From positions 310,001 through 374,000 of the forward strand of contig JAFDWS010000002.1 in assembly GCA_018268375.1 (NCBI GenBank): a stretch of DNA of 64,000 nucleotides. Reading direction: 5' to 3'. The translations under genes and the position numbers were made by a program. The DNA is from Armatimonadota bacterium (GTDB lineage: Bacteria; Armatimonadota; Fimbriimonadia; Fimbriimonadales; Fimbriimonadaceae). Position 1 is the first letter of the stretch; each line of letters starts with the position of its first letter. Shown here piece after piece: positions 783 through 63,616 of this stretch. The notes under the pieces were generated by a model, which worked only from the letters and a program-made list of their open reading frames with translations, ran no database searches and was not told the DNA's origin.

Positions 783-1322
783 TTAGGCCTTAATCAACAC
801 GGCCACGACGGCATCGCTGTTGATGACTCCCATTCCTTCTCGAGACTTGTCAAATCCTGGTCTGGGACACGCACCGACGAAGGGTGCAGGGGCCAGCACG
901 TAAACGACGTTGGTAGGGCACCATTCGTTGACAATCAGTTCTTCCTTGTCCGAGCACCATTCACGTACTGCGGCCTCGTTGTCCGGGTGGGTGATGACGA
1001 CTCCAGTGACATATGCGCTGTTGTTCAGCATGGCGCTGGCTTTGTCCAGTGTGTCGTTCGTGAACACCTCTGCGTGTACTATCGACAGCGTCACCTCAGA
1101 GGCCTTGGCCAAGATGTCAAAAAACACCTTTTCCTTGTCCTCCACCGTCGCTTCTTCCCAGTCAAGGAACGGGACGATGATTTCCTCGTTGTCGCGATAG
1201 CTCCGGACTTCAGTCGGGCTCATGGCGATAGTGGCCACGCTGCCGCGGTCGATTTCATACCGGCCTAAGCCGGGTTGTGGGACTTCGTCCACCAACAGGG
1301 CGCGCTCGTAAACGGTGTGCAT
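783..1322 (-). CDS. Unknown 179-aa protein
   Basis: First gene of a two-gene leftward operon. The product is mixed alpha/beta with conserved-looking blocks (GRYEIDRGSVATI, YVTGVVITHPDNEAA, NVVYVLAPAPFVG) but no catalytic motif I can name. Its 5' flank (1323-1426) carries two related palindromes that could be operators. A CACAAT hexamer ends 6 nt before the ATG, fitting the leaderless pattern. Confidence 0.65.
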   Translation of the reverse strand: MHTVYERALLVDEVPQPGLGRYEIDRGSVATIAMSPTEVRSYRDNEEIIVPFLDWEEATVEDKEKVFFDILAKASEVTLSIVHAEVFTNDTLDKASAMLNNSAYVTGVVITHPDNEAAVREWCSDKEELIVNEWCPTNVVYVLAPAPFVGACPRPGFDKSREGMGVINSDAVVAVLIKA

Positions 1323-1426
1323 GAATGTATTGTGCCTAGAATTGCAAAAACAGAGTTCGGAACTCTATATTTGCCAAGCCCTTTCTATTTTTTCAAGCGA
1401 GTTCGAACTCAGCTTAGACTGAACAC
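1323..1426. promoter_or_regulatory. Intergenic region with two related palindromes
   Basis: This 104-bp gap between the array's distal end and the start of the 783-1322 gene holds AGAGTTCGGAACTCT (1352-1366, inverted repeat around CGG) and the perfect 12-bp palindrome GAGTTCGAACTC (1399-1410). They share the half-site GAGTT/AACTC and lie about 46 bp apart centre to centre. A pair of operators for a dimeric repressor is the simplest reading. The region could also act as a CRISPR leader or trailer. Confidence 0.4.
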
Positions 1427-2055
1427 CCTGTTAGAGTGCCACGTTTGACCAGTGGATACAACCAGTGGTGGAATGGTCATTGCCGACTTTGGCCTGTTAG
1501 AGTACCACGTTTGACCAGTGGATACAACGTGCATAGATTTGTATAAGTACACCTATGGCCTGTTAGAGTACCACGTTTGACCAGTGGATACAACAGGTCT
1601 TTATTCGCGTTCGGCTGAGCGGACCCTGTTAGAGTACCACGTTTGACCAGTGGATACAACTTCGGCAATGGTCAGTGTTGCGGTCACAGGCCTGTTAGAG
1701 TACCACGTTTGACCAGTGGATACAACTTGCCCGTTGGAAGCGTTGTCGCTCATAAGCCTGTTAGAGTACCACGTTTGACCAGTGGATACAACTTGCTGTG
1801 CAACACGGACACGAGCAAGCGACCTGTTAGAGTACCACGTTTGACCAGTGGATACAACCTTACATTGTCGGGCGCACACTGACCAAGTCCTGTTAGAGCA
1901 CCACGTTTGACCAGTGGATACAACCTCCTGGAAGGCGGAGCAACGATGTTGTCGCCTGTTAAAGTACCACGTTTGACCAATTGATACAACAGAGTACAAG
2001 AGACGACGTATCGACAAAAGTTGCGATTGTACCACGTTTGACTGATTGATACAAC
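1427..2055 (-). CRISPR. CRISPR array, 10 repeats and 9 spacers of 30 nt
   Basis: Repeats of 36 nt start at 1427, 1493, 1559, 1625, 1691, 1757, 1823, 1889 and 1955; a tenth, degenerate 35-nt copy lies at 2021-2055. Every spacer is exactly 30 nt. Read on the minus strand the repeat begins GTTGTATCCACTGG and ends CTCTAACAGG; GTTGTA is a common start for type II-C repeats. Repeats 2-7 counted from position 1427 are identical; the first and eighth each differ by one base, and the two nearest cas9 (1955 and 2021) are degenerate. On the minus strand each repeat holds TTGTAT-N17-TACTCT, a possible built-in promoter; the cas9-proximal copy improves the second box to TACAAT. No spacer obviously matches this window by eye. 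Confidence 0.97.
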
Positions 2056-2102
2056 GTACCGTTTCAAAACGAGGCTGCGGCATTCACCAACACCAAGGGC
2101 TA

Positions 2103-2220
2103 CAAACACAAGGGGCACCATTGCTGGCGCCCTTCGTCTAGAACCTTTTGTGAGGCCCGTGCGACCCTGTTTCCAGGCTCGTGTTTTTCTTTGTATCCAC
2201 TTGGTCAAACGTGGTACAAT
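2103..2220 (-). ncRNA. Predicted tracrRNA
   Basis: The anti-repeat occupies 2189-2220 on the minus strand and pairs with the crRNA repeat over about 26 bp with a single 1-nt bulge (repeat TTGTATCCACT/GGTCAAACGTGGTAC). It is followed by CGA-G-CCTG-GAAA-CAGG-G-TCG (about 2162-2181), a hairpin with a GAAA tetraloop, and GGGCGCCA-GCAA-TGGTGCCC (2113-2132), an 8-bp hairpin with a GCAA tetraloop. The second stem is fully paired only on the minus strand (a G-U pair there is an A-C mismatch on plus), which fixes the direction. A TTGACA-N18-TACATT promoter sits just upstream at the cas9 stop. The 3' end is a guess. Confidence 0.75.
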
Positions 2221-5200
2221 CAATGTACCGCAGTACCTACAAGCATGTCAAGGTCATAGGTCTCTTTTTGCGTTTTTTGTGCTGGAATTTTTTGTACGGG
2301 CACAGGTGTCGATATAGGCACTAAACACGTGGCGGCGATGACGCGGCCTGTAATGTCGCGCTGCACCTTCCAGAGTGACTTGTCACCCAGGCGCAGAGGC
2401 AGTTTGGTGACACGGACGGCTTTGTGCAGCAACAACCGTTCGGGGTCTGAGGTAGGCCGCAGAAGTTTACCATTTTGGTCTACTTCGTCTTCGCTTTTGA
2501 GGACTGGAGCAAAAATGACACGGTTCTCATTCGACCCTGCGAAACTGGCGGCATAGAACACGACGTCGGTCTCAAGGTCGAGCATGGTGTCCTTTGGCAC
2601 GGCAGTCCTTGTTGTGTACATCAGCTCGTCATGTCGCTTGAGGTATGTGACTGCGTCTGTGGCGCGTTGTGTTTGGCGTTGCAAGTGTTGGGCGGTGCAA
2701 ACAAAACGCACGTTGTCTTTGTCTAACACGACTGCCACGTCCTTGTATAGAGGATTGATTTCTAATACGCGAGTCCTTTGCCCATGGATGCCAGTCTGTG
2801 GCCGCTCTAAGTTGCTCAGTCCTCCACAGAACGTCTTTACCTTGTGTACCAATCCGTTCGGCGTGGCCACATGGTGCATTTTTTTGACTTCGACACCGTG
2901 CGTCTCGACAGTCGACAACATTAGTTCAAACATATTTCGCGAGAGTGGCAAGTCGGCAGCGGTATTGTTGTATCGAGAACCACCGAACACAGCGGTGACA
3001 AGTTCTGCGGCCGACGAAACGGTCTTTTCTCCCAACTTGTACCCATTGTTGTTTGCCATCTCATGCATCTTCCATATTTTCTTGAGCACGGTGTTCACCG
3101 AACGATACTGTGTGTGAATTGTGACCTTGTCCGGCGTGATAGTCTCTCCTATCGGGTTCGGGGCGTACTTTGGCTCTACTGGGTCAGGAGCGTACAGCCG
3201 GACGGGTGTGATGTGTTCAAACTTATCCAGGAGCCAGTAAACGTCAGTTGGTGGTGCTTGGACTTTGCGCTTGTCCTTCTTATAAGCCGCGTACGAGGCG
3301 TCGTCGACGTGGGCTATGACAAACGAGTCGACAATATGATGACGATGGTCGTTGCGGTCTTTACTGGTGCCGACAACACGACCACTTGCTGGCAAATTGA
3401 GGTTGTGCAACCCCCATGCTTGGCGCAAATAAGCCGTGTCATATCCCTTGACTATTTGGACTGTCACCTTGGCGCCAGGCAGGTACTGGGAGATTTTTAC
3501 CCTCATTGCTTGCGCAGTCTGCCGCGCGACAAGAGCGGAGACTTGACTTAGTGAACTCGGAGCAAGCGATTGTGCTTGCTGTCGGTCGAAGTCAATGCGC
3601 TCCAACAACACATCGAAGGACTTGTGTTTTCGTGCCCAGCCTTTCAGCCGTTTTTTGGCGTCTTTCAGCATCGAGGAGTCTAGTTCCGAGGGCAGTTTGT
3701 CGCCTTTGACCTTTTTATTGAACTGTTCGTCGTCCAGGACTATGTTCCAGTCGTCGTCTACTCCTGAGGATTTGCGGTTAAAGGCGTGGTCAAGGTTGAC
3801 TCCGTCGGCCAACAACGCCTGGGCAAGAGAGATACTACGACCCGTCCATGCACCAATCGCAGCAGAAGTTTCTTTACCATCTTTATCGACACTACCACCT
3901 TGCGCAAGGAACTTTTTGAACCGACGCCAGCTTTTATCCGCATGAGCACCGACTTGAGCGCATGCCTTTTCGTGCTTTTTGCGCAACATTCCGTTCATCA
4001 TGTTGGACTTCAATATGGCCGCTCTTTCGCTTTCACCTTTGGTCAGTTCGCGGGCCAACTCGACGCGCATCACAATTTCAAGGTCTTCGGGTGCTATCTC
4101 TCTGTTTGCAATAGCGTCTTTAACTCCTTTCAGACAACCTTGCACCTGTGCGGTGGCGGCATCAATGGCAAACCGTGCACTGGGAGCATTGACTTTCCCC
4201 AGCCTGGGGGTTTGTGGCCATTGAAGAAGGACTGTGGTTTGATAAAAGTCGAAACACGCGTCGTCTGGCTTGCGCGCAGCCAGAAACTGTCCATGTGCTT
4301 GCGCAGGTTGGTTGAGCATAACTTTGTTGAGCAATAGAATCGCCTTGCGCGAAAAAGCGCTCCGACCAGCGGCAGACCATGACGACAAGACCTTGTCCTG
4401 GTCGTCGTTCAAAGTGCGGTTCTGACCAGGAAAGACTGCCGCAAGCAAGTCTTCGACGGCCGAAGCATAATCGTCCACGAACGGAGTCAGCAACAAATCT
4501 TGGACTCGCTCTCGGGCTTTCAACACCTGTAAATCCGTGTCGTCTCCTGGGACCAAAGACTTGACGAACATTGCAGTATAAGGCACGTTCACTTTGACGT
4601 CTGCCGCTTTGACGGTAATGGCTGACGTTTTGGAACTAGGCAATATCCCAGCGATTTTCAGGAGAGGTCGAATGGAAATTTGTTTTCGAGGCTGGGTTTG
4701 AGACCACTGTGCGCACAAGGTGTCGTAAGCTGTTTGTAGTTGCTGGTTGGTCAATGGGCGTTCTTGGTCGTTTTGCACCAATCGCACGTTGGTCAACGTG
4801 TTGAGCGCAGAAAAAGTCTCAGCGTCAGGAAGCTTGGATTGTGCGACGGTCTTGAAAGAATACACCGAACACCGACGAGTACGCAAGGTCGTATTTCGAG
4901 GCTCTTCAAAGACAAACGCTTCAATCAACCTTTGTCTTTCCTGTTCGTCTAGCCAAGATTGTCCTTGTAGAACCAGCCTGACTTCCTCGACGACACTGTG
5001 CCGGGCCGCATTGCGGTGTCCTCTGATTTTGCCTGTGTCAGTCAAAATTTGCAAGAAAGCTTCGGACAAACCACCATTGGCAGTCTTTAAGTCTTCGATG
5101 TACTTGGTATTGGGTGCAATTTTGTCAGAGTCGAGTTTGGCCTGAGTCTTATCCAGCCTCCGTTGGCGAATTTTAACCCCTCGGTGGTTGTGCCAAAAGT

Positions 5201-5594
5201 GCAGAACGTCCATGACCTCTGCGACCGAAACAGGTCGCTGCTTGGCCGTGACGGACAGTTGGTATAGTCGCGTGGCTTGACAACCCTGGTCACGTCCTTT
5301 GGGAGGCAATGTGGGCACCCATTGTACTTTTTTAGTCTGAGCAACGACGGCCAATGCTTGCTCAAACTTGTGTCGTCGAGCTTTGCGTCGTTGGTAAGAC
5401 GTCCGTTGTCGCTGAATCACACGGTCTTTAGAAAACTCACACGAGCCGTCTTTGCCATTGACAACTGAACGAAAATGTGCCACAGCGGCCATTGGTGGAA
5501 CAACCGGGCGACCTGCGATAGAGACACCTTGTACGTAACAACTTGCTGACCCTGTGCCAGTGTCACAGCCGACGCGAACTTTTATCCGACCCAT
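2220..5594 (-). CDS. cas9: Cas9, compact type II-C-like RNA-guided DNA endonuclease
   Basis: A 1124-aa protein (NmeCas9 class size) with the Cas9 domain order. RuvC-I is VRVGCDTGTGSA with Asp11. An Arg-rich bridge helix follows at about 62-82 (QRRKARRHKF), then a long REC lobe. RuvC-II is IVMRVELARE with Glu512. The HNH domain has VNLDHAF (His603) followed by WNIVL (Asn617) and the N-x-K-x-K-G-D-K-L-P block. RuvC-III is DRNDHRHHIVDS with His753 and Asp756, then a C-terminal PAM-interacting region. All catalytic residues appear present. I start at ATG 5594 because TACACT ends 6 nt before it; a GTG at 5615 would add 7 residues. The C-terminus DLDMLV loosely resembles the LD tag. No cas1, cas2, csn2 or cas4 lies nearby, so it may use a fixed array, perhaps against rival phages or plasmids or for self-regulation. 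Confidence 0.95.
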   Translation of the reverse strand: MGRIKVRVGCDTGTGSASCYVQGVSIAGRPVVPPMAAVAHFRSVVNGKDGSCEFSKDRVIQRQRTSYQRRKARRHKFEQALAVVAQTKKVQWVPTLPPKGRDQGCQATRLYQLSVTAKQRPVSVAEVMDVLHFWHNHRGVKIRQRRLDKTQAKLDSDKIAPNTKYIEDLKTANGGLSEAFLQILTDTGKIRGHRNAARHSVVEEVRLVLQGQSWLDEQERQRLIEAFVFEEPRNTTLRTRRCSVYSFKTVAQSKLPDAETFSALNTLTNVRLVQNDQERPLTNQQLQTAYDTLCAQWSQTQPRKQISIRPLLKIAGILPSSKTSAITVKAADVKVNVPYTAMFVKSLVPGDDTDLQVLKARERVQDLLLTPFVDDYASAVEDLLAAVFPGQNRTLNDDQDKVLSSWSAAGRSAFSRKAILLLNKVMLNQPAQAHGQFLAARKPDDACFDFYQTTVLLQWPQTPRLGKVNAPSARFAIDAATAQVQGCLKGVKDAIANREIAPEDLEIVMRVELARELTKGESERAAILKSNMMNGMLRKKHEKACAQVGAHADKSWRRFKKFLAQGGSVDKDGKETSAAIGAWTGRSISLAQALLADGVNLDHAFNRKSSGVDDDWNIVLDDEQFNKKVKGDKLPSELDSSMLKDAKKRLKGWARKHKSFDVLLERIDFDRQQAQSLAPSSLSQVSALVARQTAQAMRVKISQYLPGAKVTVQIVKGYDTAYLRQAWGLHNLNLPASGRVVGTSKDRNDHRHHIVDSFVIAHVDDASYAAYKKDKRKVQAPPTDVYWLLDKFEHITPVRLYAPDPVEPKYAPNPIGETITPDKVTIHTQYRSVNTVLKKIWKMHEMANNNGYKLGEKTVSSAAELVTAVFGGSRYNNTAADLPLSRNMFELMLSTVETHGVEVKKMHHVATPNGLVHKVKTFCGGLSNLERPQTGIHGQRTRVLEINPLYKDVAVVLDKDNVRFVCTAQHLQRQTQRATDAVTYLKRHDELMYTTRTAVPKDTMLDLETDVVFYAASFAGSNENRVIFAPVLKSEDEVDQNGKLLRPTSDPERLLLHKAVRVTKLPLRLGDKSLWKVQRDITGRVIAATCLVPISTPVPVQKIPAQKTQKETYDLDMLVGTAVH
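2222..2251 (-). promoter_or_regulatory. Predicted tracrRNA promoter inside the cas9 3' end
   Basis: On the minus strand TTGACA (2246-2251) and TACATT (2222-2227) are separated by 18 bp, placing the start point around 2215, at the beginning of the anti-repeat. The -35 box is made by the codons for Leu-Asp-Met near the Cas9 C-terminus. TTGACA is a perfect sigma-70-type match. Confidence 0.6.
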
Positions 5595-5704
5595 CCAGCA
5601 AGTGTACCCGTGCACAGGAATGAAAAAATAGGCCTGACATACCTGTGGCTTTCAGTAGACAAGCCGTTTTTTCAATGAAGTTTGAACCCAAACAGGTGCA
5701 GGCC

Positions 5705-5740
5705 GTTGTAGTTGTACCACGTTTGACCGGTTGATACAAC
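5705..5740 (-). repeat. Solitary degenerate CRISPR repeat upstream of cas9
   Basis: Minus-strand GTTGTATCAACC-GGTCAAACGTGG-TACAACTACAAC, clearly the array repeat with the same GTTGTATCAA start as the degenerate array copies. It lies about 110 bp upstream of the cas9 start and carries TTGTAT-N17-TACAAC pointing toward cas9. It could be the cas9 promoter, a lone crRNA-like or regulatory RNA, or an array relic. The rest of the 5595-5760 gap holds only the TACACT box before cas9 and no gene. Confidence 0.8.
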
Positions 5741-5760
5741 TCATAGCTCCACCACAGACC

Positions 5761-6099
5761 TCACCAATCGAAGTCGTCTTGCATCGCTGACACGTCCCAC
5801 TGGTCTTCGTCGGCAATGCTGAGCGGGTTCCGCGGCGCCAGCTCTAGCGACCCAGGCGGCATGGCCATGACGCCGGCCGGCACGAACACAAAACCGTCGT
5901 CCAATTTGAGGACTTGCATGTACGGTGCGAGGCGGTACCTGATAACGTGGTGGTTGGTGGGCGCGTCAGACCGTGCGAACAGCTTGCGCAAGTGGTCTGA
6001 ATAGTCCGGGCCAGGGGCTTTGCCCCCATTGGCGTCCTCGAACGTCTTCCATGCGGCGTCCAGGTAATCCTTCATCGCGACAGCTTCGTCGTACGTCAT
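5761..6099 (-). CDS. Unknown acidic 112-aa protein
   Basis: I start at ATG 6099 because TATCAT ends 7 nt upstream; a start at 6126 would add 9 residues. The product (YDEAVAMKDYLDAAWKTFEDANGG at the N-terminus, very acidic C-terminus ending DDFDW) has no motif I recognise. It is the next gene upstream of cas9 on the same strand, with the solitary repeat between them. Confidence 0.6.
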   Translation of the reverse strand: MTYDEAVAMKDYLDAAWKTFEDANGGKAPGPDYSDHLRKLFARSDAPTNHHVIRYRLAPYMQVLKLDDGFVFVPAGVMAMPPGSLELAPRNPLSIADEDQWDVSAMQDDFDW

Positions 6100-6190
6100 G
6101 GACTTAATGATACCTTGTCGTGTCATAATGGTCGCACATGTCGAAGGCAGTCAATTCTTCCGGAATTCTTACAATCGAGGAGGTCGAGTG

Positions 6191-6412
6191 ATGTACCAGG
6201 CGAAGGTGTTCCATGCCCAGACTGGTGCGGTCATAAAGGACCTTGAGGTGGAGATGAACAAATGGCTCGAGGCGAACCCAGACATCGTTATTCATGCAAT
6301 GACGTCGATGGCCGAGTCGCACTTGTCGCTGTACGTCGTCACGATTTTGTACGAGAAGCGCAAGAAAGCGTCAGTGACCTCGTTGGACGACTGCCTGCCG
6401 CCGTACGATTGA
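6191..6412 (+). CDS. Unknown 73-aa protein with C-terminal LD tag
   Basis: One of the few genes here with a clear Shine-Dalgarno sequence (GGAGG at 6179-6183, 7 nt before ATG 6191) as well as a TACAAT box at 6170-6175. The product ends SVTSLDDCLPPYD, a good match to the shared tag. Otherwise it is a small alpha/beta protein of unknown role. Confidence 0.65.
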   Translation: MYQAKVFHAQTGAVIKDLEVEMNKWLEANPDIVIHAMTSMAESHLSLYVVTILYEKRKKASVTSLDDCLPPYD

Positions 6413-13628: not shown

Positions 13629-14621
13629 TCATAGGGTCAACCCTGCCACTCCTGCCGATGCAGGAATGGTGAACAGCCACGCCAGTCCCATGGTCTTTGC
13701 CACGCCCCAGTTCACAGACTTCCACCGCTTTGCCGTGCCGACGCCGAAAATACTGCCTGAGATGACATGAGTGGTCGAAACGGGCATGCCTGAGTGCGCA
13801 GTGGCGAACAAGACCGTCGCTGCTGCCGTCTCGGCCGCAAAGCCATTGACCGGCTCGAGGCGGACAATCTTGTGTCCCATAGTCTTGATGATTCTCCAAC
13901 CTCCGCCTGCCGTGCCCAATGCCATGGCAAGTGCGCACGCAATGACTACCCACACCGGTATGTTGGGTGCCGACAAGACGCCTGCTGCCACCAACGCCAT
14001 GGTAATGATGCCCATAGACTTCTGTGCGTCGTTCTGCCCATGGGTGAACGCCATAGCGGCCGCCGAAAGGACTTGGAGCCGTTTGAAGAACGTTGAGGTA
14101 CCAGCGTTCTTGGCCTTGTGGAACAACAGATAAATGACTGCCATGATGACGAAACCCACGACGAGTCCAATAAGCGGAGACGTGAACAAGGGAATGAGCA
14201 CCTTTGGCACAAGACCATCTTTGGGCTTAGTGCCGAACCACACGAGCGCAGCAGGGCCCCCTGCACAAAAGGCGGCACCCACCAAACCGCCGATAAGAGC
14301 GTGAGAAGAGCTACTTGGAATACCGTACTTCCACGTGATGAGGTTCCACACAATGGCCCCAATCAGAGCGGAGAAAACAACAGCCTGACTGGCCACGTGG
14401 GGGTCTACAAGTCCACTTGCGATTGTCTTCGCGACGTTGGTGGAGAACATGGCTCCAATGAAGTTTAAGCCGGCGGCCATGACAATCGCCATACGCGGGG
14501 TCATGACCCTGGTGGAAACGACAGTGGCGATGGCGTTTGCGCTGTCGTGAAACCCGTTGATGTAGTCGAAGGCCAAGGCCACTACCACAATCAATACAAG
14601 CAACACGCCGATACTAAGCAT
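13629..14621 (-). CDS. pit: PiT-family inorganic phosphate transporter
   Basis: A 330-aa integral membrane protein with about ten hydrophobic spans and both PiT signature repeats: GFHDSANAIATVVSTR near residue 23 and HGQNDAQKSMGI near residue 195 (the GANDxAN-type repeats that bind phosphate and the coupling ion). Slightly short for the family but complete. It overlaps the stop of the upstream DUF47 gene by 8 nt, so the two are translationally coupled. Phage PiT genes are thought to keep an infected, phosphate-limited cell supplied. Confidence 0.93.
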   Translation of the reverse strand: MLSIGVLLVLIVVVALAFDYINGFHDSANAIATVVSTRVMTPRMAIVMAAGLNFIGAMFSTNVAKTIASGLVDPHVASQAVVFSALIGAIVWNLITWKYGIPSSSSHALIGGLVGAAFCAGGPAALVWFGTKPKDGLVPKVLIPLFTSPLIGLVVGFVIMAVIYLLFHKAKNAGTSTFFKRLQVLSAAAMAFTHGQNDAQKSMGIITMALVAAGVLSAPNIPVWVVIACALAMALGTAGGGWRIIKTMGHKIVRLEPVNGFAAETAAATVLFATAHSGMPVSTTHVISGSIFGVGTAKRWKSVNWGVAKTMGLAWLFTIPASAGVAGLTL

Positions 14622-45928: not shown

Positions 45929-46720
45929 TCAAGGCTCGTTGACCCACATATCCAACGGACTCTCTTTGCGCGCTGGTACTAACACCACTGGCCGCACTGT
46001 GAATGTGTCAGGCAAGGCGCAACGAAAGGCCAGTCCAGGCTTGCCTGCGTTGGCCATTTCTTGTTTGGAGAACATTGAGGTCAATAATGCCTTTGTCTCG
46101 GGGGTGTCACTGTTTTTACTCAAGTCTTGAGTGTAAATCTCTAGTGGTTTTTTGGCCTCTGTCGGAATTTCCAACACTAAAGCCTGATAGGTGGTGTCGT
46201 CCTCTTGTGACAGCTTCGCCAAAAGGTTTTGTGTCCGTTCTTCAACGGTCGGCGGGCCTGCTGCCTCATCTTTTGGCGACGGACACGCGAACATAGGGAC
46301 TACGGCCGCAAAGTCGTCGTACACTTCTTGGTTGTTGTCACTCAACCATTGCAGAAACTCAACGCCGGCAAGCAAGACTGATTGGGCGGAAAACGCAAGA
46401 GGGTCAAAAGCACGTTTGCACACGATTGGAGGACCAAGTCTGCCGCCTAGGTTGCAAAGTCGCGCTATGTACGTTTGCGCGGCCTTGATGGACATTGAGG
46501 CCGCAGCACGGGTTGCTGCGACCTCCCTGGTGCTCCACATTTGTCCCAGGTAATCGGAGTTATAGTTGTTTTTGAACTCACCAGACAACTGTGGCGGCCC
46601 GAACACCCTGCATAAAGGTTCTTCGTACACACCTTTGACGGCGGCTTCGGACAAATCCTTGTTGTAGGCCTTGTTCAGCACATCAAGCGACTGTGACAAG
46701 CTTGTTCTCTTGATGTTCAT
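45929..46720 (-). CDS. Unknown 263-aa protein with LD-type C-terminus
   Basis: Mostly helical, with a long acidic central segment, ending RKESPLDMWVNEP, a tag variant. ATG 46720 overlaps the end of the protease gene by 38 bp, an unusually long overlap, so a later start is possible. Confidence 0.6.
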   Translation of the reverse strand: MNIKRTSLSQSLDVLNKAYNKDLSEAAVKGVYEEPLCRVFGPPQLSGEFKNNYNSDYLGQMWSTREVAATRAAASMSIKAAQTYIARLCNLGGRLGPPIVCKRAFDPLAFSAQSVLLAGVEFLQWLSDNNQEVYDDFAAVVPMFACPSPKDEAAGPPTVEERTQNLLAKLSQEDDTTYQALVLEIPTEAKKPLEIYTQDLSKNSDTPETKALLTSMFSKQEMANAGKPGLAFRCALPDTFTVRPVVLVPARKESPLDMWVNEP

Positions 46721-48695
46721 TAAGACTCTTTTGCACTTCGGCTAGTTTGGCCTTGTGAGAGAACCGTGGTTGCTCTGTGAGTCCGTGCTTGCTCGCGTAG
46801 TCCAAAAATGTCTCCTGGGACATGCTCGAGTGTTCGGCCAAATAGCTTGCCACATCTACCAACAGAGCAAAATGCTCTTCCAAAACCTGCGTGGTTTCGC
46901 TTTCACAATCGGACATTATTGTCGTAGCGATTTGACTCACCTTTTCACTGTGTGCGTGGTCGACCACGAACTCAGCGTTTGCCTCGTTCAAATAGCCGAG
47001 CCAATGCTCAGGAAAAAGACCTGCTTTACCAACAGCCGCCTTCAGAGTCGACAAAACCCTGCGCAAGTCTCCTCCAGCACCGTTCGAGACGTTGTCTTCG
47101 CCAAACACCAACGCCTCTGCTTTGAACCCGGCCAGACCCCACCGTGCTTCGTCCAGAATCTCTTGGCGCGTCTTGTAATCGTCTGAAGACTGCGGAAGCA
47201 TGTACCCTCCGGCCGATGATGCGGTGCGAGAGCGTATTTGCTTAGGTGGCCGCCCATAAAACTGCATGTACGCCACAGCGTGCCCGGCCTCGTGCACCGC
47301 GACCACACATTGTTTTTCAGACTCGTCAGAACGCCGCAGGTATTCCACAAGCAACTGTACGTGGCAACGGTGCTCCTTGCTGCCTCGTGCAAAAACGTAA
47401 GACTGTTCCGCAGCATCGTAACGCCACGATATGACCCCTTTCGCTTCACAAAGTTCACACATCGCCTCGGCCAAAAATGAATCGAACAATGGCCCGAATG
47501 AGGTGACGACAGGCCGGGCTCCCTGAGTGGGGAACACACTTTCGTTGAATACCAGCTCGCGCACTGACGGGTCGATGTCCAACTTTACTTGATAGTGTTC
47601 TTGTGCTCGCTGGGCGGTGGCGGCAATTTGATTGTCGATGATGCGCCAATAACACTCACGGTCAAGACTAGGGTATATCACGTGGTTGTTGCCCAGCCTG
47701 GCGATTTGTTCTGGGCGGAACCGTTCGGCCAAAGCGTCTTTTACTTGGGCCAAGGTGATTTTTTCGGTTTCGGCGCGCAGTTCTTCAATGTCGATGTCTG
47801 GATTGGCCTCGTGGCTGTGCAAGTACACTTCGTCCAAGTTCCCTACACAGAAAACTATGCACCGCGACAAATCCTTGGGTTCACAAAGTTTGAAACCGGC
47901 GTGAACTTGTTCCACAAGTTCGATGGCCGCATCAATGTCTGTGACTTCAGCTGCCAACTGTGACTGCCAATACTCATAGTTTTCATTAAAACGAAAACGC
48001 GCCGGGTTGGCTTTGTACAAATTGGCGAACCTGAATTCGTCGATGCACAAGACTTGAGAATCTGACTTGTTCTTGCGGGACGAACCTGGTGGTTCTTGAT
48101 AGTTTGGAAAGAGCCTGCGGAATTGGTTTTCGCACTCTACGACTGCGTTCTTCTCGACCTTTCCACCCATGTCCTTGAACCTTTGCAGTTTTTGGAGATA
48201 CTCCAAAGGAAGATTGCTCACGTGACGTTTTCTTGCCAGTGGCGCTCCATCCAGCAAGTCCCAAATCAAACGCGCTGCAGGGCGGTCGACCTCAGAGCCT
48301 TGTTCATTGATGAAACGAATCGTCTGAAACTCGTCAAACACCAACACGCCCCGACCATCCGGAATGCAGTCGGCATAATCTTCCATTTGGTACCGCAGGG
48401 CATAGTCCGAGAAGTTGCCGGCGTATTCGCCCATGTCAAAATGCCCATACGCGTTCTCGAGGCCCATCAAGGCAACAAGGCGCCTAATAAGGTGGGTTTT
48501 ACCCACCCCTGTCATTCCCCATAAACAAATGATGGTCGGTCGCGTCATCAACTCTGGCGTCACGTAAAAAGGCTTTACGTAACGCAGAATAGAGTCAATT
48601 TCTTTGTCAATACTGGCGAACTCTGTCTTGAGCTGGTTTCCAATAGCACGCAGATGCTCGACTCGTTGTTTTACTGTGTTGGTGGATGATTGCAT
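46683..48695 (-). CDS. Clp-type AAA+ ATPase fused to an FtsH-type (M41) peptidase
   Basis: A 670-aa protein. Walker A is GMTGVGKT (60-67) and Walker B is VLVFDEFQT (Asp121-Glu122). LAERFRPEQIARL (~322-334) matches the Clp/Hsp100 F-R-P-E-x-x-x-R-I arginine-finger block, and QGARPVVTSFG (~391) matches the Clp small domain Y-G-A-R-P-L. The C-terminal third is an M41 zinc peptidase: AVHEAGHAVAYM (zinc His468 and His472) and NGAGGDLRRV with the third ligand Asp543. True FtsH uses a different AAA type and has membrane helices; neither is seen here. Probably a soluble ATP-dependent protease. ATG 48695 preferred; a TTG at 48704 overlaps the previous stop. Confidence 0.85.
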   Translation of the reverse strand: MQSSTNTVKQRVEHLRAIGNQLKTEFASIDKEIDSILRYVKPFYVTPELMTRPTIICLWGMTGVGKTHLIRRLVALMGLENAYGHFDMGEYAGNFSDYALRYQMEDYADCIPDGRGVLVFDEFQTIRFINEQGSEVDRPAARLIWDLLDGAPLARKRHVSNLPLEYLQKLQRFKDMGGKVEKNAVVECENQFRRLFPNYQEPPGSSRKNKSDSQVLCIDEFRFANLYKANPARFRFNENYEYWQSQLAAEVTDIDAAIELVEQVHAGFKLCEPKDLSRCIVFCVGNLDEVYLHSHEANPDIDIEELRAETEKITLAQVKDALAERFRPEQIARLGNNHVIYPSLDRECYWRIIDNQIAATAQRAQEHYQVKLDIDPSVRELVFNESVFPTQGARPVVTSFGPLFDSFLAEAMCELCEAKGVISWRYDAAEQSYVFARGSKEHRCHVQLLVEYLRRSDESEKQCVVAVHEAGHAVAYMQFYGRPPKQIRSRTASSAGGYMLPQSSDDYKTRQEILDEARWGLAGFKAEALVFGEDNVSNGAGGDLRRVLSTLKAAVGKAGLFPEHWLGYLNEANAEFVVDHAHSEKVSQIATTIMSDCESETTQVLEEHFALLVDVASYLAEHSSMSQETFLDYASKHGLTEQPRFSHKAKLAEVQKSLNEHQENKLVTVA

Positions 48696-48700
48696 GATGG

Positions 48701-49384
48701 TCAACTAAGGGCTTGGTCGATTCTCAACCAATTGTCCAAATCGCTGGTGATGTGTTCGGAGTCAATTTTGCGCACACGCAACTGTCCACACACAGCAGCA
48801 CCGACATGTACTTGTATTATGCCCTGACGTTTGACGAACAATGCAACACCGCCGACTAAACTGGCCTTGTTGACTAAACCGAGAAAACTCACAGCCGAGC
48901 GCGGGTCTGTTGTAACGAACCGGTCGGGAAAACTCTCGATAAAATCTGTGGGCACGGAACCACCGACGCAGAGTAAAAACTCGTCGTCTTTAGGTCTGAC
49001 GACAGTCGGGTCATAGTGTGAACGACCGTTCGCACTCACGTTTTCGAAGACAAAACTGTCTCCATACGACTCTGGCGCGTCCAGTTTTTGGTAGTACATT
49101 TGACAAACGACCCGGGCAGCAGCCAAAGCGAAAGCTTGTTGACACTGGATGTTGAGCTGGCTGAACGCTGTCTGCCAATAGGCCTCAAAACTGTGGTAGT
49201 TGACTCCGTGCATGCCACTCACGTCGTTCCTGACGACCTTTGGCATCTGTGGTTCTAAGAACTTGGACAACTGGTCCTTGTCCTGAAAGCACTGCAAGTA
49301 CTGCCCCATTCCAGGAAGCGGAGAGGCGCAAATTACTCTTCTGGCGTCGTGAAAAAGTGCGTACTTCGCCATATCTCGGCGCAT
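48701..49384 (-). CDS. Unknown 227-aa protein with near-C-terminal LD tag
   Basis: I start at ATG 49384, directly after the upstream stop. Contains PKDDEFLLCVGGSVPTDFIESFPD and strands VGGVALFVKRQGIIQVHVGAA before ITSDLDNWLRIDQALS, the tag plus six residues. It lies immediately upstream of the Clp-FtsH gene, so it could be its substrate adaptor or target. Confidence 0.65.
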   Translation of the reverse strand: MRRDMAKYALFHDARRVICASPLPGMGQYLQCFQDKDQLSKFLEPQMPKVVRNDVSGMHGVNYHSFEAYWQTAFSQLNIQCQQAFALAAARVVCQMYYQKLDAPESYGDSFVFENVSANGRSHYDPTVVRPKDDEFLLCVGGSVPTDFIESFPDRFVTTDPRSAVSFLGLVNKASLVGGVALFVKRQGIIQVHVGAAVCGQLRVRKIDSEHITSDLDNWLRIDQALS

Positions 49385-55385: not shown

Positions 55386-56201
55386 CTATAGTGTAGCAAA
55401 CCTCGTTCGAATGGCGTTTAGCGTGGCAAAGAATTGAGGACTGTTCTCAATCTCGTCGTGCCAAGCCAAACCTGCGTCGATGAGGTTGTAAGACTCCTGA
55501 ATCCGCGCCCCAGGAACAACGTCGCCGTTCTCGTCGCGGTCGCGTCCAAGAAGCAGAATGGTGTCACAGACTGCAAGCGCGGCGGCAACGTCATGGGTCA
55601 CAAGAATAATGGTAGCCAAGTCGTCATGCGTAGCAATGTCCTGGATGAACGCTGCCACTTTTTTCAAGGCGACGTAATCCAACCCCGAGAACGGTTCGTC
55701 CATCAGCAAGAAGTGCTCGCTGCACATGAACTGCTGAGCGATGGCCGCACGTTGTCGCTGGCCTCCGGACAGTTGCGCCGGAAACTTCGCAGCATGCTCA
55801 GTGAGGCCGAATTGCTCGAGCAACGATTGAGCGCGCTGTTCATTTGCGTCACCGTCCTTGCGGCCAGCAATGACCAGGTTGCTCAACACAGTCCGGTGTT
55901 GGAACAAGGGGTAGTTCTGAGCGACGACACCGACGTCTCCGCGGGCCACTGGCTTTTGTTCAACACCGACACAAACACTGCCAGAGTCAGGTTCGTTAAG
56001 TCCTGAGATGATGCGGAACAATTGTGTCTTTCCGATGCCACTCGGACCCAACAACCCCACAACTTGACCTTGTTGCATGTCCGGACGTTTGATGTCTTTA
56101 ATGTCGAAGCTCACATCGCGCAGGATGGTCTTGCCCCCAAGCGCGAGGTTCACCCCCTGCACAGACAACAGTGTTTCAGCAAGTTCGTATACAGGCGTCA
56201 T
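55386..56201 (-). CDS. ABC transporter ATP-binding protein
   Basis: A 271-aa ABC ATPase: Walker A GPSGIGKT (52-59), Q-loop VAQNYPLF (~93-100), signature LSGGQRQR (144-151), Walker B FLLMDEP (164-170) and H-loop His203. Family is that of NitT/TauT/SsuB-type importers. ATG 56201 overlaps the permease stop. Works with the permease and the OmpA-fused binding protein as one complex. Confidence 0.93.
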   Translation of the reverse strand: MTPVYELAETLLSVQGVNLALGGKTILRDVSFDIKDIKRPDMQQGQVVGLLGPSGIGKTQLFRIISGLNEPDSGSVCVGVEQKPVARGDVGVVAQNYPLFQHRTVLSNLVIAGRKDGDANEQRAQSLLEQFGLTEHAAKFPAQLSGGQRQRAAIAQQFMCSEHFLLMDEPFSGLDYVALKKVAAFIQDIATHDDLATIILVTHDVAAALAVCDTILLLGRDRDENGDVVPGARIQESYNLIDAGLAWHDEIENSPQFFATLNAIRTRFATL

Positions 56202-57046
56202 TTGCGCTCCAGGGTCAAGTAGGCGTACGGGCACACAATGCGCCTGATAAATCCAAGTACGTAGTCTTGGCACAGTCCGACAAAAAGAATAGCAAGCTGG
56301 ATGGCGAAGACCTCGGCAATATGAAAATGCTTCTGTTGGTTGAGCAACATCGCTCCAATTCCACCTTCGGAACGAGAAATGCCCTCCACCATTGTCAGCA
56401 TCATCCAACCGATGGCAGCGTTCTGGCGCAATACCTCGAACGCCTTGTCGGCCGTGCCAAGCACCACTACCTCCCATACGACGCGCCATTCCGACATGCG
56501 GAGTGTGCGAGCGTGGTCGAACGTCTCTTTGGGAATCTCCGAGACCACAGAGGCCATGGACGTCAAAAAGAACACAGTCATGCCCAAAACGAGAAGGCAC
56601 ATTTTGAGCGGACCACCTCCACCCACCATGAGGGTGAACACGAACGTGAACCCCACCAAGCTGAGAAAACGTCCCTTTGACATTGCTGTCACCACCGGTC
56701 GGAAAAACGGCATGACTGTCAAATAGGCACACCCCAAACCAAGCACCGACATGGCCAGAAGGGCCTTGACGTTCAACTCCATGCTGGTCATGATTTCCGC
56801 GAAGAGTCCTTCGTGCTGTGCCAAATGACCGAAAGCCGCGACGACTTCTTGTGGTCTTGGCAGTATGGCAAACGGTGAGTTCAGCCACACCGCGACAAAA
56901 GCTGCCACTTGCAACAGTACGATAAGTCGCACCGCGTTAGGAGACAACACCTTGTTGGGCGAAAAAGCCGCAGCAATCCCCGCAAGCCCGGGGCGTTTCC
57001 GCCCCAGCTTAACGGGGTTGCTGGCTGCATTGGATGGAAGTTGCAT
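56198..57046 (-). CDS. ABC transporter permease (NitT/TauT-like)
   Basis: A 282-aa membrane protein with about six spans and a cytoplasmic coupling helix around GGGPLKMCLLVLGMTVFFLTSMASVV and RMSEWRVVWEVVVLGTADKAFEVLRQN. Resembles SsuC/TauC-type permeases. Both spans and context support it; substrate unknown. Confidence 0.88.
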   Translation of the reverse strand: MQLPSNAASNPVKLGRKRPGLAGIAAAFSPNKVLSPNAVRLIVLLQVAAFVAVWLNSPFAILPRPQEVVAAFGHLAQHEGLFAEIMTSMELNVKALLAMSVLGLGCAYLTVMPFFRPVVTAMSKGRFLSLVGFTFVFTLMVGGGGPLKMCLLVLGMTVFFLTSMASVVSEIPKETFDHARTLRMSEWRVVWEVVVLGTADKAFEVLRQNAAIGWMMLTMVEGISRSEGGIGAMLLNQQKHFHIAEVFAIQLAILFVGLCQDYVLGFIRRIVCPYAYLTLERK

Positions 57047-57055
57047 GAGGGGTTC

Positions 57056-58879
57056 TTAGCGAGTGCCCAACACGATTTCGACGCGACGGTTCATCTTGCT
57101 TCCCTCGACGCTGTTTGGTTCGAGCGGGTTGCTGCTACCGAAAGACGTCACCTTGATGCGGCCTGCCGGGAAGTTCACGGGGGCTTGCTTCTCAAACCAC
57201 CGCTTCACGGCGAACGCCCTCTCTTCTGACAATTGGTCAGCCGAGTTACGCTCTTTCGCACCATCGGCGTAGCCGCGGATTTCGACGACAGCACCAGAGG
57301 CGACCAGCAAGTCGTTCAAAGTCGCCCGCAAGACCCGAGAGCCTTCGTCGGGGATGAACGTCTGTCCAGGCGTGAAGAAGACGCGCCAACTCGACTTAGA
57401 GCCGATAGGCTGGATGGGTGCGCCAGAGTCCTCGTAATGCGGAGAAGCCTGGGCGACCTGCGCCGAACGGAGAGTAGGATTGGCGCGAGACGCCACTGCC
57501 TTGACATAACTGGTGTCGAGGATGCTTTCGACAGGGTCGTAGCTTGGCACCAGATTGGGGTATTGCTGCACGACAACGTCGCCAAATGTCGAATAGGTCG
57601 CGGCAAATAGGTTCTGTGAACCAGGCACAAGACCGTACAACAGCATGTTGTCTGCGAGGTTGTTGACCGACGAACCACCCAATTCGACCATCAGGCCTTG
57701 AGCGTCGCGCTTCGTCGTGCCTTTGAAGTACGTGTACCAATAGCTGGCGTCAGCACCCTGCTCTTGGTAGACCTCGGCACTGATTTGCGCCGCTTTCTGC
57801 AACGCAGCGTCAGACGACTTGATGGCGTCACCGCCGGCAAAGATGCCAGCTAGGTAGGACTCGACCGACTTTCGGTTGTCCTTCATCCACTTGTCGATGC
57901 CAATAATGGTGTTCGGCATCTGCGACGCGTACTCACGGGTGGAGATAATCGAGACAATACCGCCTTTCTTGTCAGCAACGTTGACGTCTCCAGGCGTCCA
58001 CGTTACAACACCTTGCACCGTAATGCGCTTGGTCTCTCCTGTGGGTTTCCCGTTCTTCACGACTTTTCGTTCTTCGCTGTAGCCAGCGATGTACTTTTCC
58101 GCCGCGTCAATGTAGTCGTTCGCGGCGACCCAGTTAAGGGCGTCGGGGTCCCACGTCTTTTCGTCGGGGTTGTTTTTGATGTTGTTGTCACCGCACCATT
58201 TCAACGCAATGTTCCAGTCGCCGTCACGCAGATATCCCGAGACGACACCGCCGCGGGCAAGCTGAGGGTTGTTCTTCCACTCACGAGGGCCCATGAACTT
58301 GTCTTCGCCACGAGAATAGCCACAAGAACCAATGACCTTTGCCGTGTACTCGGGGCCAAGCCGTCGCAGCTGTGCGTTCAAAGGAGTCAAAAACGCCGCG
58401 GCACCATCACCCATGATGGCCACAAAGTGCGCACCCTTGCTGGGGTTGGGATTGCCGTTTTTCAGTTCTTGTGCAAAAGCCACAAGCGCTTCTTGCATCT
58501 TGGTGGCGTCGTCTTGTCGAGTCAACTTAAGGTTGACACCGAGTTGTTCCATCAAGGAACCACGAGTCGTCTTTGCACCGCCGTTGGCGAGCATGAGGCC
58601 AGATTGTGCGTTCCATGCCCACACCAGCATACGCATCTGTTGGCCAGTGACAGGCGCGGGGTCGTCACTGATTGTGTTCAGTTGAAGGTTGGTGCCCTCG
58701 CCGGCCGACACGGTCAGTGCCGGCAAGTCCACATGTTTGGGAACCACCGAGGCAGTGGAACCACCGCCTAAGAGCGTCTTAACCTTGTCGCCGAACATTC
58801 GGTAAGCACCGAACGCAAGGCCAATGGCCAAGACCACGAACGTGATTTTGCCAACGGGGGTCAGTTTAGAAGCAGCCAT
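57056..58879 (-). CDS. Membrane-anchored substrate-binding protein fused to OmpA domain
   Basis: A 607-aa protein. One N-terminal membrane span (~10-27) is followed by a long type-2 periplasmic-binding-protein-like region (~60-500; e.g. LVWAWNAQSGLMLANGG near residue 84). The C-terminal ~95 residues are an OmpA domain: VVEIRGYADGAKERN, LSEERAFAVKRWF and MNRRVEIVLG carry the Asp/Arg that bind diaminopimelate in peptidoglycan. So an importer binding subunit is tethered both to membrane and cell wall. First gene of the leftward operon; AATAAA lies 5 nt before ATG 58879. Confidence 0.88.
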   Translation of the reverse strand: MAASKLTPVGKITFVVLAIGLAFGAYRMFGDKVKTLLGGGSTASVVPKHVDLPALTVSAGEGTNLQLNTISDDPAPVTGQQMRMLVWAWNAQSGLMLANGGAKTTRGSLMEQLGVNLKLTRQDDATKMQEALVAFAQELKNGNPNPSKGAHFVAIMGDGAAAFLTPLNAQLRRLGPEYTAKVIGSCGYSRGEDKFMGPREWKNNPQLARGGVVSGYLRDGDWNIALKWCGDNNIKNNPDEKTWDPDALNWVAANDYIDAAEKYIAGYSEERKVVKNGKPTGETKRITVQGVVTWTPGDVNVADKKGGIVSIISTREYASQMPNTIIGIDKWMKDNRKSVESYLAGIFAGGDAIKSSDAALQKAAQISAEVYQEQGADASYWYTYFKGTTKRDAQGLMVELGGSSVNNLADNMLLYGLVPGSQNLFAATYSTFGDVVVQQYPNLVPSYDPVESILDTSYVKAVASRANPTLRSAQVAQASPHYEDSGAPIQPIGSKSSWRVFFTPGQTFIPDEGSRVLRATLNDLLVASGAVVEIRGYADGAKERNSADQLSEERAFAVKRWFEKQAPVNFPAGRIKVTSFGSSNPLEPNSVEGSKMNRRVEIVLGTR

Positions 58880-61892: not shown

Positions 61893-61936
61893 TGTCCTGA
61901 GCACCTGGATGGCGGATGGGCTATACTGCTCTGATT

Positions 61937-63616
61937 ATGGCACACCAAAGTTTGTCTCAAGCGGTCACGAACGCCGTGGCACAGGCAATCCAACTCGCAG
62001 TCGTCGACGGCGAGTTGCCCACAAGTGTGCTCGACGTGCCCGTCGATATTAAGCGGCCAAGTCAAAACGTGGCTGGTGACTATGCCACCACTTTTTGCCT
62101 ACAAGCGGCCAAAACCTCCGGATTGTCCACCTCTGTAATCTTTGAGGCTCTTTTGCCTTACCTGGAGCAGACCGGCTTCTTTACGTCTGCCGCGTTCGCA
62201 CAACCAGGCTTTATCAACTTTGAACTGTCCCCTGCGGCCATCGACACCTACGCCTCCTATGCGCTGCACGACAACGCTCCAACCATGGTCGAAGACCCAC
62301 ACACCTACAACGTAGAGTATGTCTCTGTCAACCCGAACGGACCTATTACAGTCGCAGCGGCACGGGGTGCTGTCATCGGCGACGTTTTGTCCCGCGTGCT
62401 AAAAACGGTAGGCCACGATGTCACAAGGGAATACTATGTGAACGATGGCGTGAACAGCGAGCAAATGCGCTTGTTCGGCAAATCGGTCAAGCACCATGCC
62501 TGGACAGCATTGGAAATTCCTTCTTCAATGCCGGCCAACGGATATCAAGGCGCATATGTCGAAGCCATTGCGAAGGCCATGGTCTCGAAGTACGGAAAAG
62601 ACTTCCTACTTGAACAAGACGTCGCTTTTTTCCAGTCCACGGCACAGGCAATGATGATAGCGCAACAAAAGTCGGAACTCGCTGGGTTTGGAGTGGAATT
62701 CGATGTGTGGAGCCATGAACAAGAACTGTACGAGTCAGGAAAGGACATCGCAACGCTTGCAAAAATGAAAGAGTCTGGCGCGCTGGTCGAAAAAGAAGGA
62801 GCGCTTTGGTTGAACTCTTCCGCGTTCGGAGACCAGGAAAACCGGGTAGTCCTACGGTCTGACGGCCGTCCGACTTACGTCGCGGGCGACATTGCCTACC
62901 ACTGGGACAAGTATCAACGCGGACACGACAGGCTCATCGACTTATTAGGGCCCGACCATCATGGCTATATTCCGCGGTTAAAGGCCGGAGTTGCCGCCGT
63001 GGGCGAAGACCCTGACACGCTTTTTGTGCTCATCTTCCAAGCCGTAAGGTTCATCAAGGACGGAGAGGCCGTATTGATGCGAAAGCGAGACGGCAACTTG
63101 TACACCTTGAGCGACCTGACAGAAGAACTCGCCATCGAGCTTGGAAGCGCACAGGCCGCCAAAGACGTCGTGCGGTTCTTTTACCTGTACATGTCGGCAA
63201 ACAAGCATGTAGACTTCGACCTAAGCCTGGCAGTCAAACAGGCCGCAGAAAACCCGTGCTTCTACGCTCAGTACGCGCATGCGCGCTGCTGCTCCGTATT
63301 GACAAAAGCAGGCGAGCCCGAACCAGGTGCTCAGTGGGCGTTATTGTCAACAGCACAAGAAAAAACCTTGTTGTTCAAGTGTCTTGAACTGCCGGCCGAA
63401 ATCACACGGGTGGCCGAAGACTATGGTGTCCATCGTTTGGCGCATTACGCGGTCGACACTGCAAAGCTGTACCACGCCTTTTACGAGCACTGCAAAGTAA
63501 TTTTGCCAGACAATCCCAAACTGTCGAACGCTCGGAAAGCATTAGTCTTATTGGTCAAACAGACATTGGCCAGCGTGCTTGGTATATTGGGCGTCTCGGC
63601 GCCCGAGACCATGTGA
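61937..63616 (+). CDS. argS: Arginyl-tRNA synthetase with altered HIGH and KMSKS motifs
   Basis: A 559-aa class I synthetase. The N-terminal Add-1 domain (~1-100), the Rossmann core (GALWLNSSAFGDQENRVVLRSDG, then DIAYHWDKYQRG and LLGPDHHGYIPRLKAG), and the DALR anticodon-binding domain at the C-terminus are all present. In the HIGH motif position the sequence is NPNGPITVAAARGAVIGD (usual H-x-G-H replaced by T-V-A-A), and the KMSKS-type motif is LMRKRDGN. Both are atypical, so activity may be altered, although some bacteria also have variant HIGH motifs in ArgRS. TATACT lies 9 nt before ATG 61937. Confidence 0.9.
   Translation: MAHQSLSQAVTNAVAQAIQLAVVDGELPTSVLDVPVDIKRPSQNVAGDYATTFCLQAAKTSGLSTSVIFEALLPYLEQTGFFTSAAFAQPGFINFELSPAAIDTYASYALHDNAPTMVEDPHTYNVEYVSVNPNGPITVAAARGAVIGDVLSRVLKTVGHDVTREYYVNDGVNSEQMRLFGKSVKHHAWTALEIPSSMPANGYQGAYVEAIAKAMVSKYGKDFLLEQDVAFFQSTAQAMMIAQQKSELAGFGVEFDVWSHEQELYESGKDIATLAKMKESGALVEKEGALWLNSSAFGDQENRVVLRSDGRPTYVAGDIAYHWDKYQRGHDRLIDLLGPDHHGYIPRLKAGVAAVGEDPDTLFVLIFQAVRFIKDGEAVLMRKRDGNLYTLSDLTEELAIELGSAQAAKDVVRFFYLYMSANKHVDFDLSLAVKQAAENPCFYAQYAHARCCSVLTKAGEPEPGAQWALLSTAQEKTLLFKCLELPAEITRVAEDYGVHRLAHYAVDTAKLYHAFYEHCKVILPDNPKLSNARKALVLLVKQTLASVLGILGVSAPETM

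Follow-up and report, generated by a model that had tools for sequence, protein, structure and literature searches.

A predicted tracrRNA starting at the cas9 stop codon in a type II-C-like CRISPR-Cas9 module of a huge phage

The window, the whole stretch of 64,000 nucleotides that was analysed, is C5:310001-374000 of a 3.83-Mb assembly; coordinates below are those of the window unless a contig is named. It contains a cas9 gene, a predicted tracrRNA and a CRISPR array that follow each other in this order on the same strand. The anti-repeat begins 3 bp past the cas9 stop codon, and about 45-50 bp separate the tracrRNA from the array. A further, solitary repeat lies upstream of cas9. The features are collected in Table 1.

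Table 1 Features of the phage cas9 locus, in window coordinates; energies and sequence features as predicted.
Feature	Position	Strand	Remarks
Matching leader-like stretch	1388..1411	-	15 nt past last array repeat
CRISPR array	1427..2055	-	10 repeats of 36 nt, 9 spacers; period 66, first 65
Second repeat R2	1955..1990	-	partly degenerate; -38.4 vs -45.1 kcal/mol
First repeat R1	2020..2055	-	degenerate in tracrRNA-pairing half; -33.3 kcal/mol
Predicted tracrRNA	2100..2217	-	inferred start about 2217-2215, inferred 3' end about 2105-2095
Closing helix, 3' side	2105..2112	-	CTTGTGTT; pairs with 2185-2178
Terminal hairpin	2113..2132	-	GGGCGCCA-GCAA-TGGTGCCC; weak terminator-like tail CTTGTGTTTG
Middle hairpin	2141..2158	-	GGGCCT-CACAAA-AGGTTC
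First hairpin after anti-repeat, nexus-like	2160..2182	-	CGA-G-CCTG-GAAA-CAGG-G-TCG
Closing helix, 5' side	2178..2185	-	AACACGAG; pairs with 2112-2105
Anti-repeat	2191..2217	-	26 pairs with repeat, one bulged A on tracrRNA side
cas9	2220..5615	-	1131 aa from GTG at 5615; alternative start ATG at 5594
-10 of putative tracrRNA promoter	2222..2227	-	TACATT; overlaps first base of cas9 stop codon
-35 of putative tracrRNA promoter	2246..2251	-	TTGACA; within last cas9 codons
Terminator- or attenuator-like fold	5622..5704	-	U6 tract; between solitary repeat and cas9 start; z -2.71
Leader-like stretch	5667..5690	-	14 nt past solitary repeat; 19/24 identical to 1411-1388, p ~0.001
Solitary (eleventh) repeat	5705..5740	-	upstream of cas9, facing it; extended -10 TGGTACAAC

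GC content is near 0.53 from C5:1 to about 531 kb and then rises to 0.60. The low-GC part of C5 encodes a terminase, a portal, a head protease and tail proteins as well as many tRNA genes and is therefore a huge phage, of about 531 kb, which continues on the same contig into a bacterial chromosome. The nearest phage, found through its TerL (best segment 76% identical), is IMGVR_UViG_3300044957_000763 (478,840 bp). Its gene order stays collinear over the two ends of the low-GC part, so the phage genome is close to complete. Neither a Cas9 match nor a comparable array was found in this relative. Around the cas9 locus, about 18 kb of phage sequence share almost no genes with the roughly 7 kb at the matching place in the relative, so that the stretch reads as variable cargo. 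The TerL match in the relative is split into two segments, residues 1-240 and 229-701 of the query, which lie about 970 bp apart, as expected from an intron, intein or other insertion. At the boundary, a 58-bp stretch (C5:531,104-531,160) that is 88% identical to the start of C5 (C5:1) borders the bacterial sequence of GC 0.60. Since its translation resembles GroEL by eye (ITKDGVSVAREIELEDPYE), misassembly or recombination at groEL may have fused phage and host.

The cas9 product passes the curated cut-off of TIGR01865 (E 1.4e-31; 109.6 bits, cut-off 100), and its score against the type II-D (Cas9d) profile NF049971 is 58.5 bits, with a cut-off of 375. The RuvC and HNH catalytic residues D18, E519, H610, N633, H760 and D763, all in invariant alignment columns, are intact. 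The nearest Cas9 sequences belong to bacterial II-C-type loci and are about 20% identical. Searching with three Cas9 sequences returned only bacterial II-C loci and one IMG/VR contig. No close Cas9 relative was found in INPHARED, PLSDB, IMG/VR or 291 genomes of the phylum, a PDB sequence search gave no match, and the profile built from all 15 Cas9s contained no searchable motif. Foldseek placed the model of the protein nearest to Nme1Cas9; structural details were set aside, as the model is of low confidence (mean pLDDT 57). We describe the phage Cas9 as very divergent and, tentatively, as type II-C-like, on the basis of these nearest sequences and of the low-confidence model. That it cuts DNA, and which targets it would choose, follows by inference from its family.

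The array consensus repeats share CCAC/GTGG with the anti-repeat, and R1, R2 and the solitary repeat have CAA instead. Mutation of the first, oldest repeat in its tracrRNA-pairing half is common in II-C arrays, whose repeats also carry promoters (PMC12080349), and the mutated R1 fits this pattern. R1 contains an extended -10, TGGTACAAT, at 2034-2026 (TACAAT at 2031-2026), in place of which ordinary repeats have TACTCT and would make poor promoters. R1 is therefore probably the array promoter, with a predicted transcript start at about 2019, which lies some 7 nt beyond the -10 and is the first base of spacer 1. Spacers had no matches in plasmids or elsewhere in the assembly and only chance-level matches in phages, and two 22-nt spacer ends were not found in IMG/VR. 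Downstream of the last repeat, at about 1345-1370 on the minus strand, AGAGTTC-CG-AACTCT followed by GTTTTT resembles an array terminator.

The solitary repeat sits about where related loci carry their tracrRNA anti-repeat. Its extended -10 faces cas9, a leader-like stretch follows both it and the array, and the fold behind it, with its U6 tract, recalls the type II scaRNA (PMC6199352), which is likewise repeat-like, lies outside the array and is followed by a terminator-like fold. Three roles can be proposed from these features: the repeat (5740-5705) may be the cas9 promoter, may give rise to a scaRNA-like RNA ended by the terminator-like fold, or may be what is left of a second array and its leader. 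The difference from the scaRNA is that transcription of the solitary repeat is putative and that the role of cas9 promoter is equally possible; the leader match reaches only p ~0.001, and the three roles are not separable from sequence. Taken together we regard such roles as a serious possibility, at somewhat less than even odds. With any of them, the level of tracrRNA could feed back on cas9.

On the minus strand between 2260 and 2090, TTGACA-N18-TACATTGA is followed by the anti-repeat and the tail of the predicted tracrRNA. The TTGACA-N18-TACATT promoter that the initial annotation had placed in the last cas9 codons is present at 2251-2222 with a spacing of 18. The final codons read GTA CAT TGA, and the stop codon (2222-2220) shares its T with the -10. 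In a promoter scan of 1300-6300 this was the top sigma-70-like site (10/12), its weakness being a -10 that matches at only 4/6 and lacks a TG extension. Sites with a perfect -35 and a -10 of at least 4/6 number 26 in the 1.07 million strand-bases of the phage, and the chance of such a promoter in a given 10-nt slot is P ~2e-4. Promoter-like sites are concentrated in the intergenic sequence of the phage: -35/-10 pairs reach 0.31 per kb there and 0.12 per kb in genes, extended -10 sites 0.39 and 0.065 per kb. The phage therefore probably uses sigma-70-like promoters.

The tracrRNA could also lack a promoter of its own and be released by RNase III, either as the 3' end of the cas9 mRNA or as the 5' end of a tracrRNA-array transcript. 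The short gaps between cas9, tracrRNA and array on a single strand would suit such processing, as would the weak terminator tail of the terminal hairpin. As this hairpin has no clean U-run, read-through from the tracrRNA into the array is possible. The occurrence of a near-consensus promoter at exactly the right spot speaks against release from a longer transcript, which we consider unlikely.

The predicted tracrRNA itself is well defined. The consensus repeat GTTGTATCCACTGGTCAAACGTGGTACTCTAACAGG pairs with 2217-2191 at -45.1 kcal/mol; the initial annotation had counted the 26 pairs correctly but overlooked the bulged A. The 118-nt RNA from 2217 to 2100 folds at -46.1 kcal/mol (z -4.79), a value that none of 200 shuffles matched, and the plus strand has no comparable structure, so the RNA folding that had been proposed as a check agrees with the claim. 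For the tail alone, z is -3.52 on the minus and -1.66 on the plus strand. The CCTG-GAAA-CAGG hairpin (2177-2166) and the hairpin with the GCAA loop were both recovered on the minus strand. The cues that had been given for direction also hold, since both loops are of the GNRA type and the plus strand would have a C-A mismatch in place of the G-U pair. The description of the scaffold as compact does not stand: the RNA is about 115 nt long, with a third hairpin and a closing helix that had been missed. No close relative of the Cas9, the repeat or the tracrRNA was available for covariation in the collections searched, and a search of IMG/VR with the exact repeat pattern gave no match.

Because the minus-strand folds surpass those of the plus strand, and the would-be plus-strand tail (2219-2316) is unstructured (z +0.70), the minus strand can be taken as settled as far as sequence allows. 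A structure on the other strand or a chance fold, with the anti-repeat an inverted stray repeat, would fit the promoter-like extended -10 TGGTACAAT on the plus strand of the anti-repeat (2212-2220, antisense into cas9), but it is very improbable given that plus-strand tail and a minus-strand fold that beat every shuffle. Complementarity to the repeat, the folding statistics and the rarity of the promoter at this spot jointly support the tracrRNA, its strand and its start at the cas9 stop, as had been claimed, and as a prediction a real tracrRNA is convincing.

A phage Cas9 whose RuvC is dead has been proposed to act as an anti-CRISPR (PMC11656645), a precedent for a phage Cas9 and tracrRNA that capture host crRNAs, and the host has a II-C locus of its own on contig C3. 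We nevertheless find this reading hard to credit for the present locus: the catalytic residues of RuvC and HNH are conserved, a matching array is present on the phage itself, and the host repeat pairs no more strongly with the tracrRNA than shuffled repeats do. Sharing or sequestering of host II-C guides was rejected on that measurement (host repeat GTTGTAGCTCCCTCTCTCACCCCGGATAGCTACACTC against the tracrRNA, -19.2; shuffled mean, -24.3).

The placement of the tracrRNA was compared with 46 related loci that have a CRISPR array and cas9 in view, 39 of which gave a candidate anti-repeat. In 38 of these 39 (counted by hand) the anti-repeat lies 5' of cas9, usually at a distance of 40-350 bp from the predicted start; in a few it is more distant, or just inside cas9 where the start is misplaced. 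The single exception is a weak 13-nt match beside a truncated gene (locus L131). The link between the end of cas9 and the start of the tracrRNA was thus rightly called unusually direct, and the order cas9-tracrRNA-array is rarely seen in related bacterial systems. As the place and direction of the tracrRNA differ among type II groups (PMC3936727), the present layout is a variant, not a new kind. In a Bacteroidetes contig (L126), the array starts 3 nt past the called cas9 stop, with no cas1 or cas2 between.

The locus resembles type II-C systems (Neisseria meningitidis and the related bacterial loci) in the nearest Foldseek match of its low-confidence Cas9 model, in 36-nt repeats that start with GTTGTA, in spacers of about 30 nt, and in a degenerate first repeat and an extended -10 within a repeat. 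It differs from them in several respects. The anti-repeat of the II-C relatives is 5' of cas9 and divergent, whereas the phage tracrRNA follows the gene. The relatives have cas1 and cas2. On the phage neither was detected: the assembly has a single cas1, which lies in the host's II-C locus, the ten ORFs neighbouring cas9 gave no Pfam cas match, and the type II-C layout of cas9-cas1-cas2 without csn2 or cas4 is not present here. Type II-C is further defined by an array transcribed against the cas operon (PMC3936727), as is usual in the relatives, whereas array, tracrRNA and cas9 of the phage all run one way. As an effector module free of adaptation genes on a phage of more than 200 kb, the locus resembles the CRISPR-Cas systems of huge and jumbo phages (review, PMC11656645; jumbo-phage survey, PMC13037316; landfill phages, PMC12607003). 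The cas9 of the landfill jumbo phage is not near any array, whereas in the present phage cas9, tracrRNA and array are packed into a single compact locus.

We conclude, with a probability of about 0.88, that the tracrRNA of a type II-C-like CRISPR-Cas9 effector module carried by the phage is encoded on the minus strand from 2217 to 2100. Transcription of this RNA would start at about 2217-2215, and that of the array probably at the extended -10 within the degenerate R1, a start that would avoid a useless guide from R1. The tracrRNA would pair over 26 bp with each crRNA of the array, and the duplex would be trimmed by the RNase III of the host, which we propose because RNase III was detected only in the bacterial part of the assembly. 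Cas9 would then load the dual RNA and cut DNA that matches the spacers, with rival phages or plasmids as the most plausible targets. As no cas1 or cas2 was found on the phage, its spacers would be fixed or added only with outside help.

A wider reading takes cas9, the tracrRNA promoter in its C-terminal codons, the array promoter in the decayed first repeat and the repeat-derived element before cas9 as a phage-specific one-way Cas9 module, in which repeat-derived sequences would drive and tune the transcripts and expression would balance itself without adaptation genes or outside regulators. We put this forward as speculative and rather improbable in its full extent. The locus contributes a complete phage Cas9 guide scaffold that is very divergent and whose tracrRNA, repeat and protein are all defined; its order departs from the rule that its bacterial relatives follow. 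Should the promoter reading be correct, a Cas9 effector module would be fitted into about 4.3 kb of phage DNA, its control signals hidden in coding sequence and decayed repeats.

The phage carries a large tRNA set at about 432-520 kb of C5, including a predicted tRNA with a CTA anticodon (L044:10178-10252) that could read amber codons. Elsewhere in the window it encodes a phosphate transporter (PHO4; 13629-14621), an M41-peptidase/AAA protein (46683-48704), an ABC-transporter ATPase (55386-56888), an OmpA-domain protein (57056-58879) and an arginyl-tRNA synthetase-like protein (61916-63616).
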